DNA of 64,000 nucleotides from Amphirosellinia nigrospora (taxonomy: Eukaryota > Ascomycota > Sordariomycetes > Xylariales > Xylariaceae), in contig SCHM01000005.1 of NCBI GenBank assembly GCA_004123355.1, positions 682,001 through 746,000 of the forward strand, written 5' to 3'. Each line of letters starts with the position of its first letter. Positions within the stretch are counted from its first letter, which is position 1. The notes beneath the pieces were generated by a model that was given only the letters and a program-made list of their open reading frames with translations, searched no databases and had not been told where the DNA came from. The position numbers and the translations under genes are program-made. Of this stretch, positions 21,713 to 61,787 are shown piece by piece.

Positions 21713-23992
21713 ATGGTTGGCCGCGAGGATGGGGGGCCGTGCTGCCACGCGATCAGCGTGATCGGGGATTGGGAACTAGTCTACGCCAGGCGCGTGAAGG
21801 TTTGCCCGACGGCGCTGAAACAGAGGACAGGCGTCTTCTTTCCGAGGACGATCGCGAGCAAACCTGGGTAGCCGCGAAGACGGCATCGCAAGCCCGCGAG
21901 GCAGCAGGGTTTTTTGCCGTCATATTTGCGCTTTCCGTAACCGGCGCCCTCGTTCTCGCAGGGCTGCTGCTATCTCTCAACCCTTCGGGACCAAAGGTTG
22001 AGTGGCAAGTTGGCGGCCATCATCCACCGCCAAAGTTGGCACATCCGGGAGATAGATATGTTCTGAACCCGGACTGGGACTTTTCTGCCCCAAGCCAAGT
22101 CAGAGAGTATGAATGGACCATCACCGATGGAGAAGGCAGCCCGGACGGTGTACACAGGCCCATGATGTTAATTAACGACCAGTTTCCGGGACCTCTGATC
22201 GAGATGAATGAAGGAGATGTGCTCAGCGTCAAAGTGTTAAACAAGGCGTCCAATGCTACCGCACTTCATTGGCATGGTATCTTTCAAAACGGAACAAACT
22301 GGATGGACGGGGCTGCTGGTGTGACCCAATGCCCTATCGCTCCCGGCCAGTCTTATCAGTATAAGTTTAATGTTACGGGCCAGTCGGGCACATGTAAGGC
22401 AAAATCTCCTACTTAACCCCCTTCGAAACCTGAGTCCCTAGGGTATCAATTTCACTGTGGCGTAGACCTATTGGACCTGCCGAGCTAACACATGGACACA
22501 AGACTTTTACCACGGTCATCAGGGGGTTCAAGCCCTCGATGGCCTCGTAGGGCCAATGGTAGTCCACACTACCCGAGAGGCTGGGAAACCATATTCGTCC
22601 GACCGCGTCATCCTGCTACAGGACTGGTGGTACGACCCAGCAAGCGGCCTTATGCGGGATGTGTTGTCTCCCGGAGTCGAGGATGCGCCCATTCCCAACA
22701 CAGCATTGATGAACGGAGTCAATCAGGCCGTCTGCTCTGATCACCCTAACCGGAAATGCACCGACGTGGAAGCCGCATCTTTACCACTTATAAACGTGGC
22801 GCATGGTGAGAAACATAGGCTTCGTTTCATTAACGTGGGCGGCTTTGCCTGGTTTCAGGTCGCCGTTGACGATCATGTCGATTTGCAAGTTATGGAGGTG
22901 GACGGAAACATTGTCCAACCTACCTTGAGTTCGCCTCTACTTATTGCACCCGGACAACGTTACAGTGCGGTGCTGGGGGCTGATCACGACGACGGAGCAT
23001 TCTGGCTCCGGGCTAGGATGGTTACATCTTGCTTTGCAGAACAGAAGCTTCCCGAGAACGGTATTGAGGAAGCAAAAGCCATCATTAGCTATAAGAAGGA
23101 TCTACACACTCGACACGGTGACCATGATGCAGAAGACACTCATGACGAGGACGGCGACGACGATGAAGATGATGGCGAGGAACATCTCGTCTTACCCCAG
23201 ACAACATCCGACATTCCATTTCTCTCAGTTTGCCGAGACCTAAGCTCCACCACCTCTTTTCTGCCCTGGCCTCAACTACCCGCGCCGGAGGTCGCAGACC
23301 ACTCGTGGCATCTGCGTGTCAATCTAGCTATTGGAGATTGGCGACTGCAAAGGGGGTTTTTAAACTCATCATCATTTCGACCGAATTTAACATATCCCAC
23401 GCTACACCGGGTTCTCGACGGACTAGCACAAGGTAACGAGTCCTTTGCAAAGGAAGGTGTTAATATAGCCGCCTTTGACCCCGAGTCCGAGCTCGTCATT
23501 TCAAACAACAACGTGGAGGTCGTCGATATTATTTTACAGAACATGGACGAGAACAGCCACCCCTTCCACCTACACGGGAACCAAATGTGGGTGCTCGGGG
23601 CCGGTCACGGTTACTTCCCCGGGTACGAAGCACTAGGCTTTTTACCAGAGGGGAAAGGCCTCCTCGACCCGGCCAACCAGACCCTCATCAGCAACCCTCT
23701 CAAAAGAGATACGATCACGGTCGAAGGCTTTGGGTGGAGCTTGATCCGGTTCGTAGCTGATAATCCCGGCGTGTGGTTGTTTCATTGCCATGTGATCTGG
23801 CACTCGGAAGCTGGAATGGGGATGCAGTTCTTGTCGAGGATAGACGAGTTGCGCGGCTTGCGGGTGCCGGAAGAGGCGCGTAAACTGTGCGACGCCCCTG
23901 AAGAGGAGCTGCTGAAGGGAGCGCCGCCGAAAGACGAGGTCTTTTTTGGCTTTGGAGATAGCCGGCATCGGCGACGCGGTCGCATTGGGTGA
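21713..23992 (+). CDS. Membrane-anchored multicopper oxidase (laccase/ferroxidase-like) with His/Asp-rich insert
   Basis: Multicopper oxidases couple oxidation of a substrate (phenols, Fe(II), Cu(I)) to reduction of O2 to water. Two exons, 21713-22393 and 22503-23992, are separated by a 109-bp intron with CTAAC before its CAAG end. The proposed ATG at 21713 reaches the main frame if the G run at 21731-21736 lacks one G; without it the frame has no ATG before the membrane segment. One hydrophobic helix (AAGFFAVIFALSVTGALVLA) lies near residues 65-85, so the catalytic part is outside or lumenal. All copper sites are present: HWHGIF, FYHGHQG (made by splicing), HPFHLHG and HCHVIWHSEAGMGMQF, with Met at the axial position. 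Between domains 2 and 3 (DNA about 23103-23193) an acidic, His-rich stretch is inserted. It lies 655 bp upstream of a ferroportin-like gene on the same strand. Substrate unproven. Confidence 0.9.
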
Positions 23993-24647
23993 TACCAGGA
24001 TTATAAGAGTAATTTTAATAAGTATATACCGAATACCATTTGTACTTTATATTTCCATCGGTCGTAGTTTATTTGTTTAGCCGTCGTTGTTTTTCTATGT
24101 CATCGAGCTGCTTGAGGGTTATGATTGTACTAAAAGCTCGGTTTCAAAACTCAACACGAATCCCTTTGATCCGAACTCTAGGCGAAATTATCTTTGATAC
24201 CTACCAGGGTGAGGGACGTATGATCTCCATAACCATATTCTTCTAACGCGAGATACTCAAGGATGTAACGGTGAGTGGGCCATGAAGCCTCCGAACCGGC
24301 CTAAAACCCCCGTCTTGCTCGCACCAAATTCAACCGAAGTGGCGCCACGTCTCCGTCGCATCCCAAACCTATACCAAAAAAAATCCACCTTGATCCGGCC
24401 CGGAGTTTCTGAGGAACTGTACCTCCTCCATCCGGCAGATCGGTCTGACTCATTCAAACCGCCGATGTTCTGGGTATGATGGGTTGAGTTTGGGTGCTTG
24501 TAGGCCTCTTTTCCAGGCGTCTGATTCGCCAATTACATACTACCAATATTTCATAGTCAATAGTTCTATACTCAACGACTTCCAAGTCCCTGTCCTGTTT
24601 ACTCATCATTGTAATGTGTTAGAACAACCGGGAGGGAAATTTTCAGT
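23993..24647. other. Intergenic region between oxidase and ferroportin-like genes
   Basis: This 655-bp gap carries the 3' end of the oxidase gene and the promoter of the transporter gene. A motif search for GATA sites (iron regulators of the SREA type) would be worth doing here; by eye I see no compelling cluster. No gene is seen. Confidence 0.5.
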
Positions 24648-26591
24648 ATGGAATCCGAAGACGAGACGGCATCTCAATTCCACGATGAGATGCTTGTCGC
24701 TGCTCGGCCGGGACTCACCCGCGCCCAGGCCTTCAACCTCTACATCAGCCATGCTTTCTCGACGTGGAATGCTCGTGGCTATGAGTTCGCTGTTGTAAGT
24801 ATATCGGCATGGGCATTGGCGGCGCCGTTGTTGAAAAGAACAATACTGATGCCAACTCACGTAGATCCTCTTCACGGCTGCTGCATATCCGGATACACTG
24901 GTAGCTGCCGCTCTACGGTAAGGTACCCGTTTGTCCGGTCTTTTTATCGCTGCATTACGCAGTGTCACTCAGTTTCGTGCCTCGGGTGATAAGCGCTGTT
25001 TTATATCTTAGATAGTTTTCAGAAATTGATCTCTAACGACTTCATCCCAGGATGATCATTATATACATCGCTATGATCATATTCTCTAGCTCCGTAGGCC
25101 ATTGGGTCGAGCGGTCACCCAACCGGTTGCGAACACTCATATCAACTATTTGCTGCAACCGAGCATCTGTGATCCTGGGTTCATTCGTCTGGCTATTGAT
25201 TCTAAGCCAAGAGAACCTACTTATCACCGAGCCGCCCGCCACTACGCCATCTCGATTCACGCTACCCCGAAACGACGTCTTGAAAGGCATCATCTTTGCC
25301 GTGGCTGTCTCTTTCGGTATCATCGAGAGACTCAGTGCTTCCGGCAATCTCATATCCATGGAGCGAGATTGGGTCGTTACGGTAGCCGGCCGGTAGGGCA
25401 TCCTTATGATCTAACCAACTTGAATGCTGTCATGCGACGCATCGATCTTGTCTGCAAGCTTCTCTCACCCATCTTGATCTCGATCGTCATCTCGGCGACC
25501 GGGTCCGTACGTATCGGCGTCCTATACACGGGGTTCACGAGCCTCATAAGCATTCCGATCGAGCTGGTCTCCGCCAAGCGTGTATGGAACGGCAGTGTGG
25601 TCTTGCAAGCCCCGAAGCCAGTCCCGGTTCCGGCGGTGACACAGAATACTCCCGCTGGAGAGGAGGGGGGCGAGGTCAGTATTGAGTCTTGGCCGAGTAG
25701 AATACGCGGGTACTTCAAAGGTCTGGAGTTGTACTTTACTAGCCCTGCCTGGATCCCATCGTTTGCTCTGGCGATGCTTCACTTCAACATGTTGACCTGG
25801 CGGGCAACCTTCATCACTTACTTGATCAATATCGGCTATTCGCTCAATGTGATCACCATCGCCCGTGCCATCGGGTCCCTTTTCGAAATCAGCAGTACTG
25901 TCATCACGCCCCGCGGTATCGTGTATCTCGGCAAGACGAATCGACAGAGTTCTGTGTCGGGTGATGACTCCGAAGCCAGCTTGCTAGGCGACGAGTCTCG
26001 TCACAACGACTCTATCAGCGACACGCAGACTATAGTTGGTCTTCAACGTTTGGGACTATGGGGGATGAGTGGCCAGCTCCTCAACACCGTTAGTCACACA
26101 ACTGTCTCTCTGCGCATCATCTCGTCTACTAACTCTTGGATAGATACCTGTGGTCCTAGCGCTCTGGTAATATCCGCAAAGCGTGACCAAGCCACCGGAG
26201 AGGACATGCGCGTCACGATACCGCGCATGCTGGGTGATGGGGCGTCCCTCAGCGTAGGATGGAGCGTCGTCTTGTTTTCGTTCCTCGCGTTCTCGCGCCT
26301 CGGTGTCTGGATCTACGACCTCACCACGCAGCAGCTGACGCAGACACTGGTCCACAAGACTCAGCGCTCGAGCTTCGCCGGCGTCGAGAATTCGGTAGTC
26401 AACGTGTTCGAGGTCCTAGGCGCAGGCGCTGCCATTGCCTTCCCCAGGTTGAGCAATATCGTTGGCTCGCCCTTGCAAGCCTCGTCGCTGTGATGATTAG
26501 TTGGTGCATGTATGCTTGGTGGGTGACGCTGCAACGCGGCCACCTTGTTCATTGGGAGAAACTTGGGTCAAGGATTGGTGGAAGACGTTGA
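24648..26591 (+). CDS. Ferroportin-1 family (SLC40-like) transporter (three frame breaks)
   Basis: Ferroportins are multi-pass transporters that move Fe(II) or related metals out of the cytosol. Exons: 24648-24794, 24865-24917, 25051-26088 and 26144-26591; introns are 70, 133 and 55 bp. Family marks are LYISHAFSTWNARGYEFAV in the first helix, SISMERDWV-like SGNLISMERDWVVTVA, NLNAVMRRIDLVCKLLSP, LTWRATFITYLINIGYS and a last helix LASLVAVMISWCMYAWWV. About ten or more hydrophobic segments fit the 12-helix fold. The Asp of the animal STWGDR motif is Ala here. Breaks near 25390, 26167 and 26443 are each repaired by one extra G or C, giving about 560 residues with a Ser/Asp-rich loop (about 25930-26030). 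It follows the multicopper oxidase on the same strand. Metal and direction of transport are inferred from family only. Confidence 0.88.
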
Positions 26592-29259: not shown

Positions 29260-30300
29260 ATGGAGCTCGAGCAGCGTACTTCCGCGCCCTCCGTCAATGA
29301 GGCTGCCTCAATAGCCAGCTCTGCCGTCGGCGCTCAGGGGTCCTCGAAAGGCGCTTTGACATCCGGTTCCCATTCTCCTATTGTTGTGGCAATGGCTCCT
29401 ATTTCTGGCTATTCACCAATAGCGCTGGCTTTGACATGACGCACCCAGCCACACCCTCGTCGTCACCTGTGTATCCACGTGTGACGTTGAAGACCACGAA
29501 CAGCGATATCACAATCGCTCCAACCAAAACGGCCATTGTCATTATTGACATGCAGAACTTCTTTCTGTCGACTGCCCTTGGCCGCAGCCACAGCGAGGGC
29601 CTCGAAGCTGAGGATAAGCTATTGAAGATAGGCATCCCCGCGGCTCGTAAAGCCGGGATCCAAGTCATCTGGTTAAACTGGGGCATTACTGATGCCGATC
29701 TCGAGACGTGCCGCCCAATCTGTTCCGCATCTTCGGCTGGGAGATCGCCGAGAGCGGCAACTTTGAGGTCGAAGACGACGGCCCGGACGCTTCGCCAGGC
29801 CAAATACTATTGCGACCGGAAAGAAAGCGTAATCCCGGTGTTGGATCGCAGCTCGGCAAGGTCAAGCTAGAGAATGGTACCGAAGTTGAAGCGGGCCGGG
29901 TGTTGATGGCGGACCAGTGGAATACTGCTCTGCATGGAGGGCTGGAGGACGCGTACCAGGCGGGCCAGAAAGCAGCTGTCCCAGATGTCGCCTTCAAAAG
30001 GTGCGGCCATCAGGTCTCTGGGGTCCATCGTCTGATATGGAAGCATTCCTTCAAAAGCAAGGGATTACGACGTTGCTTTTTACTGGTGTCAACACAGATC
30101 AGTGCGTCCTATCCACCATGCAGGATGCATCAGATAAAGGGTACGACACTATCCTCCTGGAGGATGGATGTGGTACTACGAGCCCTGAATACGCCAAACA
30201 AATGGTGCACTACAACTGCCAGAAGACATGGGGATTTGTTTCAACCTGTGAGGCGCTGGCACAAGGCGTTAACAACATCGTTAGAGAGGAGGATGCGTAG
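29260..30300 (+). CDS. Isochorismatase-like cysteine hydrolase (three frame breaks)
   Basis: Isochorismatase-fold hydrolases use a Cys-Asp-Lys triad on amides or enol ethers (nicotinamide, ureidoacrylate, isochorismate and others). I start at ATG 29260 (MELEQRTSAPSVNEA) because one missing G near 29388 joins it to the family motif GNGSYFWLFTNSAGFDMTHP. The catalytic Asp is in IVIIDMQNFFLS and the Cys in FTGVNTDQCVLST; LNWG and SGLWGPSS are further family marks. Breaks lie near 29388 (one G missing), 29712 (ACGTGCC for ACGATGCC, one A missing) and 29999 (AAAA for AAAAA). The repaired length is about 347 residues, somewhat long because of a Ser/Ala-rich N-terminal extension. No introns and no signal peptide are seen, so it is probably cytosolic. 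The substrate cannot be told from the sequence. Confidence 0.87.
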
Positions 30301-59747: not shown

Positions 59748-61158
59748 GGTGTCGGGCGCACTGCTGTGCGAGAGACGAAGGCAGCCGGGATGTCGTCGTG
59801 AAGACTATAAAGACGGATTGGAAAGGCGTGGGGCCGCCGCCGTGATGCGCCTTCGCTCGATGCAGCGGTAGCAACTGCGTTACGCTGTAAATGCGCCTAT
59901 GAAATGTGTGCCCAGCGGTGCGTCCGCGCTTCGTCGGAGGTCGGGATGGCGGATGAGGTGACGTCGATAGCGTTCTCGAAACACGGCACTGAACCAATCG
60001 GGCAGCTTGTCGAAGAAGAACGAGGTAGGGGCGGTGATGGCCTGGAGACGATTCGTGTTTTGGTTTGCGTGAGCGGAGAGTGGTGGTCGTGCGAAACCGA
60101 GGCTTCGAAAAAGTCTGTAGGTCAAGTCTGTAACAATGGAGATTTGAGGATTAAAGGATGGGCTTGGAGATGAAATGAGCAGGGAAGATCATCCAAGGTC
60201 GAGTTGCTGTGCTGCCAGACTGCGTTAGGTATCTTTGGTCCTGCTTAAGCTTAGTCGCTTGGCGGCAGGGCTTAGACGGCCAGCTAAGATACCCGTCAGA
60301 GAGAGGCATGTGATTGGATGACGAGCCTCTCAAGTGCTGGGTTGCGCTGTTACACTTGCGGGGCGCTTCCCACGACTGCAGAACGACTGCATCAGTGCTG
60401 CATCACTCAGCCGCGGTGGTGTGGCTGAGACCAGATGGACCAGATGGCGCATGCGGCATGCTGCACTACTGCACGCAATGCCATACTGGACCAGGCGGGT
60501 AGGTGACGTAACACTACCACCTCACGACTCAGACTCAGACACGGCCGCATCAATACCTAGGCCAGCTGGTGTCGACAAGCAGACCTGCCTGCCCCAAGGC
60601 TCCGGTTTAATAATAGCCATTAGGCATCGAGATTAATTTGACAGAAGAGTTTCGTGTTTCCATATCAACCCAAATGCCAATGGCATCTCCTTCGACAGCT
60701 ATGTGTACGTGGAATGCTCACTACCTCCAAGATCCTTGCCGCGCGTGAGGCCTTGATTGGTTGCTGATGCGACATAGGTACTGTACTTCCCTAAGCTTAG
60801 CTTGTTTGGGTTAACATGCAGATGGGATTGCCCAGGGTCGCACGAGCAACAGAGAGGAGGGCGACTTGATTATAAAGCCAAACGTACATCCCTTTTGTGC
60901 GACAGTATATAGGTATGCGGCCACGCCCTTCCTGTCACTCTTCCCCTTGCGAAGACGCTAGTTATATATGTGACTAATATGTAGAAGCCGATAACGCACT
61001 GAGAGGAAACCGATCATGGTATAAATTCCAAGTAGGTTCTCAACACCAGAGAAGAATGGGTGATGTCTTGGGAAGAGCATATAGAAACATAGAAACCGCA
61101 TACCCTGACTATTCCCATCCCCGTCAGACCCGACGACGTATCCTCGGCTTAGTTCATC
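59748..61158. other. Divergent promoter region
   Basis: This 1.4-kb gap lies between the DUF300 gene (minus) and an isochorismatase-like gene (plus). Overlapping frames at 59722-60173 on both strands lack domains. A TATATAGG motif near 60907 lies about 250 bp before the plus gene. No gene is supported. Confidence 0.45.
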
Positions 61159-61787
61159 ATGGCATCAGCATCAACCCCTACCGCCCTTCTCCTCATCGAC
61201 ATCCAACAGGCCTTCAATGAGCCACCCTATCGCTCCGGGAGGTCAACACCGAGCTTTGAAGCCAATGTCACTAAGCTCCTGGCCGCGTTCCGCGCCGCCG
61301 AGAACGCGCACGTCATACACATCTGCCATCACTCGCGCTCCGAAAGCGCCCCTCTGCATCCATCAAAACCTGGAGCGCAGTTCATGGACTACGCAACGCC
61401 GCTGCCGGGCGAGATAGTTAGGTCTAAGAACGTCAACTCGGCTTTCATCGGTACCGACCTAGAGAGCGTCATCAGGGGCCTCGGCATTCAGAACTCGTTG
61501 TCATCGGCCTGACGACCGGCCACTGCGTTAGCACCTCCGTCCGGATGGCCGCCAACTTATACGTCGTTAACCATTCGCACGGCGGCGTGGCAGCGGGACA
61601 GGGCCCTCCAGGGGAGATCATCGTTGTCTCGGATGCGACTGCGATGTATGATTGGACCACCAGTAGCGGTAAGGTTTACGACGGCGAGACACTACATACC
61701 ATTAATTTGGCAACTCTGGATAACGAGTTTTGCGAGGTTCGGAATACAGAGGAGGTGCTACGGTCTCTCAATGGTGCAGATCAGTAG
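61159..61787 (+). CDS. Isochorismatase-like cysteine hydrolase, second copy type (one frame break)
   Basis: A second member of the isochorismatase fold, different from the one at 29260: shorter (about 210 residues), with LLLIDIQQAFNEPPY carrying the catalytic Asp, HICHHSRSES and GLTTGHCVSTSVRMA with the catalytic Cys. FIGTDLESVIRGLGI is the usual helix before the Cys loop. The frame breaks once near 61494, where AACTCGTTG should read AACCTCGTTG (one C missing), giving LVVIGLTTGHC. It starts ATGGCATCAG at 61159 and stops at 61785-61787. No introns, no signal peptide; probably cytosolic. The fold covers nicotinamidases, ureidoacrylate and other amidases, so the substrate is open. Confidence 0.9.

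Follow-up and report, generated by a model that had tools for sequence, protein, structure and literature searches.

In animals, transport by ferroportin is driven by a multicopper oxidase (MCO), either hephaestin or ceruloplasmin. Among fungi, FpnA of Aspergillus fumigatus is described by its authors as the first functionally characterised ferroportin; the protein is located in the vacuolar membrane, confers resistance to nickel, cobalt and gallium, is not induced by its metals and has no role in iron homeostasis, an sreA mutant background included, while homologues are found across fungi, Sordariomycetes among them (PMC11890741). The locus described here lies in a window of 64,000 bp (the whole stretch of DNA analysed), which corresponds to bases 682001-746000 of contig C7 (1,533,180 bases) in the Amphirosellinia nigrospora assembly (11 contigs, 48.1 Mb). 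Genes interrupted by short GT-AG introns and an island with signs of repeat-induced point mutation are in keeping with a filamentous ascomycete, and the ITS seems to be like that of Xylariales, perhaps Hypoxylaceae. Within the window, an MCO gene is situated 655 bp upstream of a ferroportin gene, both on the plus strand, as measured from the MCO stop codon to the ferroportin ATG (Table 1).

The existence of this gene pair was confirmed. The first-pass annotation had described it as a membrane-anchored MCO with all copper ligands followed at that distance by a ferroportin-family gene on the same strand, and both parts of the description hold, the former through three Pfam matches, the copper motifs and one N-terminal hydrophobic helix, the latter through the FPN1 matches and the coordinates. 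It is considered probable that the pair represents an FpnA-type vacuolar transporter of nickel, cobalt and gallium and a neighbouring copper oxidase with an N-terminal anchor, no functional link between the two having been found. By analogy with A. fumigatus, the ferroportin would be the single FpnA-type protein of the fungus, most likely placed in the vacuolar membrane, and would transfer cytosolic Ni2+, Co2+ and perhaps Ga3+ to the vacuole. The MCO would be a separate, presumably independent, three-domain blue copper oxidase with one N-terminal helix and its catalytic part outside the cytosol, where it may oxidise phenols, ascorbate-like compounds or possibly Fe2+.

Table 1. Features of the MCO and ferroportin genes, in window coordinates.
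Feature	Position	Strand	Remarks
MCO exon 1	21713..22393	+	Cu-oxidase_3; start codon unsettled
MCO predicted N-terminal membrane helix	21898..21984	+	Hydropathy; residues ~61-89 of the reading frame used
MCO intron	22394..22502	+	109 nt, GT-AG; only intron of the MCO gene
MCO exon 2	22503..23992	+	Cu-oxidase, Cu-oxidase_2; type-1 copper site with axial Met
Intergenic region	23993..24647	+	655 bp; no ATCWGATAA
Ferroportin exon 1	24648..24794	+	ATG at 24648
Ferroportin exon 2	24865..24917	+	Gene model
Ferroportin exon 3	25051..26088	+	Frame break near 25393/25396
Ferroportin exon 4	26144..26591	+	Frame breaks near 26163 and 26450

The ferroportin was identified by matches to FPN1 (PF06963) of 48.4 and 138.4 bits on two of its pieces (cut-off 24.6). 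Three PF06963 matches occur in the whole genome and all are pieces of this one gene, which is the only ferroportin gene found. It resembles A. fumigatus FpnA in being a fungal PF06963 homologue encoded by a split gene; it differs in having an MCO as neighbour, which is not mentioned for FpnA ('multicopper' has 0 occurrences in PMC11890741). Eight hydrophobic stretches are spread over the four pieces, some of them long enough for two helices, where the family expects twelve helices. When aligned to human ferroportin (8dl6), the window protein was found to conserve N174, R178 and D181. The metal sites of the human protein are formed by D39 and H43 (S1) and by C326 and H507 (S2) (PMC12594662). 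At D39/H43 the window protein has A/E (the first-exon alignment being short and weak, E 1.5), at C326 it has A (in an aligned stretch of only 3.4 bits) and at H507 it has G, one residue past the aligned stretch. By these weak alignments the window protein has none of the four residues of the human metal sites, which sets it apart from human ferroportin.

The MCO has one match each to Cu-oxidase_3 (115.2 bits, cut-off 21), Cu-oxidase (100.1 bits, cut-off 21) and Cu-oxidase_2 (113.6 bits, cut-off 20.4), and all four copper motifs (HWHG, YHGH, HPFHLH and HCHVIWHSEAGM) are present. The only hydrophobic helix detected is N-terminal and the catalytic part is therefore predicted to lie outside the cytosol. 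No C-terminal membrane helix was found in the window MCO, nor in the hand-joined Fet3-like protein of contig C8, the C-terminus of which may be incomplete. The ATG at 21713 is out of frame with the helix and the helix frame has no ATG upstream of it, which leaves the start of the gene unsettled; the stop codon is TGA at 23990-23992. An acidic, His-rich loop (HTRHGDHDAEDTHDEDGDDDEDDGEEH, window 23100-23200), which could bind metal, is absent from both paralogues aligned. With the animal system the locus has in common the ferroportin family, an MCO and an axial Met at the type-1 copper (PMC11817551). Hephaestin and ceruloplasmin, however, have six cupredoxin domains and three type-1 sites, whereas a single set of three domains is present in the window MCO.

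Genome-wide, 17 MCO matches were obtained and counted as 12 MCO genes, 11 of which were placed in a tree, with the window MCO as the anchor of the alignment (the remaining one, L032, was dropped as too little of it aligned). In this tree the Fet3-like MCO of contig C8 forms a clade with two relatives (support 1.000) that does not include the window MCO; the latter groups with two ascorbate-oxidase-like paralogues at a support of 0.913, on long branches. Its exon 2 likewise has ascorbate oxidase (1aoz) as the best PDB match, at 1.9e-38 compared with 8.7e-29 for Fet3. The NCBIfam search gave sub-threshold matches only, the best being TIGR03388, to which exon 2 alone scored 155.8 bits, far under the cut-off of 614.8. 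The window MCO thus shares with ascorbate oxidase the top PDB and NCBIfam matches of this exon as well as an axial Met, but differs from it in being membrane-anchored and in remaining so far below the family cut-off.

The residue at the axial position also separates the window MCO from Fet3. It is a Met ten residues after the Cys, while in Fet3 the position is taken by L494, a non-coordinating Leu; in ceruloplasmin, domains 4 and 6 carry a Met there (PMC11817551). A Fet3-type MCO was rejected on the basis of the N-terminal anchor, the axial Met and the position outside the Fet3-like clade. The genome has its own Fet3-like MCO at C8:928798-932065 (L024), of which a 167-aa exon piece matches 1zpu at 1.5e-52, arranged divergently from the only FTR1 gene found in the genome. 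Both this pair and the yeast Fet3-Ftr1 system resemble the window pair in the presence of an MCO beside a metal transporter, the four copper motifs and D409. Nevertheless, the transporters belong to unrelated families, the Fet3 anchor is C-terminal rather than N-terminal and its axial residue is Leu rather than Met. The proposal that the window pair is distinct from Fet3-Ftr1 is consequently borne out, by the separate FET3-FTR1 pair on C8 and by the placement of the window MCO outside the Fet3-like clade.

Shared regulation by iron was assessed through the SreA-type motif, ATCWGATAA (PMC2610380). Neither the 1000 bp preceding the MCO nor the 656 bp preceding the ferroportin has a copy, while three copies occur in the 1800 bp between FET3 and FTR1 on C8. 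The background frequency is one copy in 156,010 bases (other fetched sequence together with the GC-normal part of the window), this copy being at window position 30129. As the C8 positive control has three motifs and the window pair has none, nothing indicates that the latter belongs to the iron-repression circuit; the C8 genes are, moreover, divergent and the window genes are on the same strand. The missing motif does not exclude other regulation. Other promoter motifs were few and mostly near expectation.

Several observations weigh against an FpnA-type transporter lying beside an independent oxidase. Fet3 uses E185, D283 and D409 as iron residues (PMC3129051, PMC11836134), numbered here as 1zpu chain position + 21, an assumed offset which puts E185 on a glutamate. 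D409 is kept in the window MCO as a D four residues before HPFHLHG, and E185 may be retained, the position being E by tblastn (through a gap) and A by MAFFT; at the D283 position no Asp appears in the alignment, but the stretch is gapped. N-terminally anchored MCOs of Rhizophagus irregularis act as ferroxidases, RiMCO1 and RiMCO3, with predicted N-terminal helices, having allowed a yeast fet3 mutant to grow better (PMC11836134). The RiMCO1/3-like group is defined there by an N-terminal helix together with one or more of the Fet3 iron residues, and the window MCO has both, its helix being predicted; by this likeness ferroxidase activity is possible. Unlike the window MCO, the RiMCOs have no tie to a ferroportin gene in PMC11836134 ('ferroportin' 0 occurrences). 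Shorter GATA cores before the MCO are somewhat over expectation (HGATAR 5 vs 3.3, WGATAA 3 vs 1.2). The chance of an MCO on either flank of the ferroportin is ~0.002 (taking 12 MCO genes and assuming a total of 11,000-15,000 genes), a figure for a pair that was picked after the whole window had been read. Finally, the functional reading of the window ferroportin rests on one other species, A. fumigatus.

The first-pass annotation had gone further and suggested that the two genes may be a functional pair and an iron module. In such a module the ferroportin would pass Fe2+ (or Co2+) over the plasma membrane or that of the vacuole; the MCO, anchored on the far side, would oxidise the metal and so drive transport. 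Although the MCO stands in tandem with the only ferroportin gene found and its predicted helix would place it outside the cytosol, FpnA has no role in iron in A. fumigatus (PMC11890741), the weak alignments show no conservation of the human metal-site residues and the SreA motif is absent before both genes. The resemblance to the ferroxidases RiMCO1/3 and to the redox-active ceruloplasmin sites with their axial Met, along with the presence of D409, also speaks for the module, but the two alignments disagree on E185 and D283 was not seen in its gapped stretch. An oxidase-driven exporter is accordingly regarded as quite unlikely. Neither the iron assignment nor a functional pair is supported. 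Relatives in prokaryotic and viral contigs amounted to 30 and 3 pattern matches, respectively, with 0 confirmed, and no paper on a fungal MCO-ferroportin gene pair was found in the openly licensed PMC literature. The annotation had also allowed for another metal and for compartment loading, which fits the vacuolar location of FpnA and the nickel, cobalt and gallium resistance it confers (PMC11890741). A version in which the vacuole is loaded with Co2+, Fe2+ or Mn2+ by the ferroportin, and a lumenal, N-terminally anchored MCO oxidises and traps the metal, is considered very unlikely.

The two genes might also be related more loosely, both serving tolerance to metals or oxidative compounds and being retained close together, with an oxidase that does not act on the substrate of the transporter. 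The adjacency is in keeping with this, as is the location of four of the 12 MCO genes on C7, a contig with 3.2% of the genome and an expectation of 0.38 such genes (Poisson P ~0.0007), but this gathering may be unrelated to the ferroportin. The same gathering raises the local chance of an MCO neighbour. The four genes are hundreds of kb apart and not in tandem, and no other metal gene was recognised in the window; this explanation is considered unlikely. An iron gene cluster was rejected: among the 40 window open reading frames (ORFs) given to Pfam, four of which are pieces of the MCO and ferroportin genes, no iron or metal gene besides these two was recognised, within a listing of 125 ORFs of at least 90 aa in which small exons were possibly missed.

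The ferroportin reading frame is broken at three places (Table 1). Together with the out-of-frame first ATG of the MCO and the heavily mutated island that starts ~7 kb downstream, showing repeat-induced point (RIP) mutation, these breaks could be taken as signs of two pseudogenes in decay next to a RIP-mutated block. However, genes elsewhere in the assembly break alike. An HSP70 gene at C8:855379-857197 is split into three pieces in different frames, with overlaps of 4 and 7 bases. Another at C7:1398639-1400377 is in four pieces with three junctions (two overlaps and one 10-base gap), all of which change frame. The first gene thus has 2 junctions in ~1.8 kb and the second 3 in ~1.7 kb, a rate similar to that in the ferroportin. 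KS domains are similarly split (e.g., C5:5010920-5011447 with 5011447-5011665), and the junctions in HSP70 and KS pieces are too tight for introns. Because housekeeping genes break at near one per kilobase, uncorrected assembly indels are the likeliest cause of the frame breaks. The GC content is, in addition, normal over both window genes and the protein between the breaks still gives good Pfam matches. The pseudogene explanation was put low on account of the HSP70 genes and KS domains and is held to be very unlikely. The assembly seems to carry ~1 indel/kb, and every ORF-based reading of it is affected.

The other Pfam matches in the window were to an alpha-amylase, a DUF676 hydrolase and an Ostalpha-type transporter, with matches below the cut-off to a nucleoside hydrolase, Fungal_trans (just below), LSM and the first of two isochorismatases. 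The two isochorismatase-like ORFs (window 29301-29867, below the Pfam cut-off, and 61153-61509) flank the AT-rich island, which extends over window 33500-55600. The GC content of its 1-kb bins is mostly 5-20%, with TA/AT mostly 1.1-1.5 and (CA+TG)/(AC+GT) mostly 0.05-0.55, the bin at 39 kb being milder, a pattern of extreme RIP-type mutation. In six other 10-kb stretches of C7 no 1-kb bin fell below 37% GC. The island is near the middle of the contig and may be a centromere. The genome is also rich in polyketide synthases, with 120 KS-domain matches, fragments included.

If the two genes were nevertheless to cooperate, oxidase-assisted metal export or vacuolar trapping would exist in fungi besides the known uptake of iron with the help of an oxidase, with implications for the change in ferroportin role between animals and fungi. 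A vacuolar trapping module, if true, would be a fungal counterpart of hephaestin and ferroportin, built with a different oxidase and present alongside Fet3-Ftr1. With an FpnA-type transporter beside a separate copper oxidase as the probable reading, the name 'ferroportin' in fungi should not be taken to imply an iron exporter.

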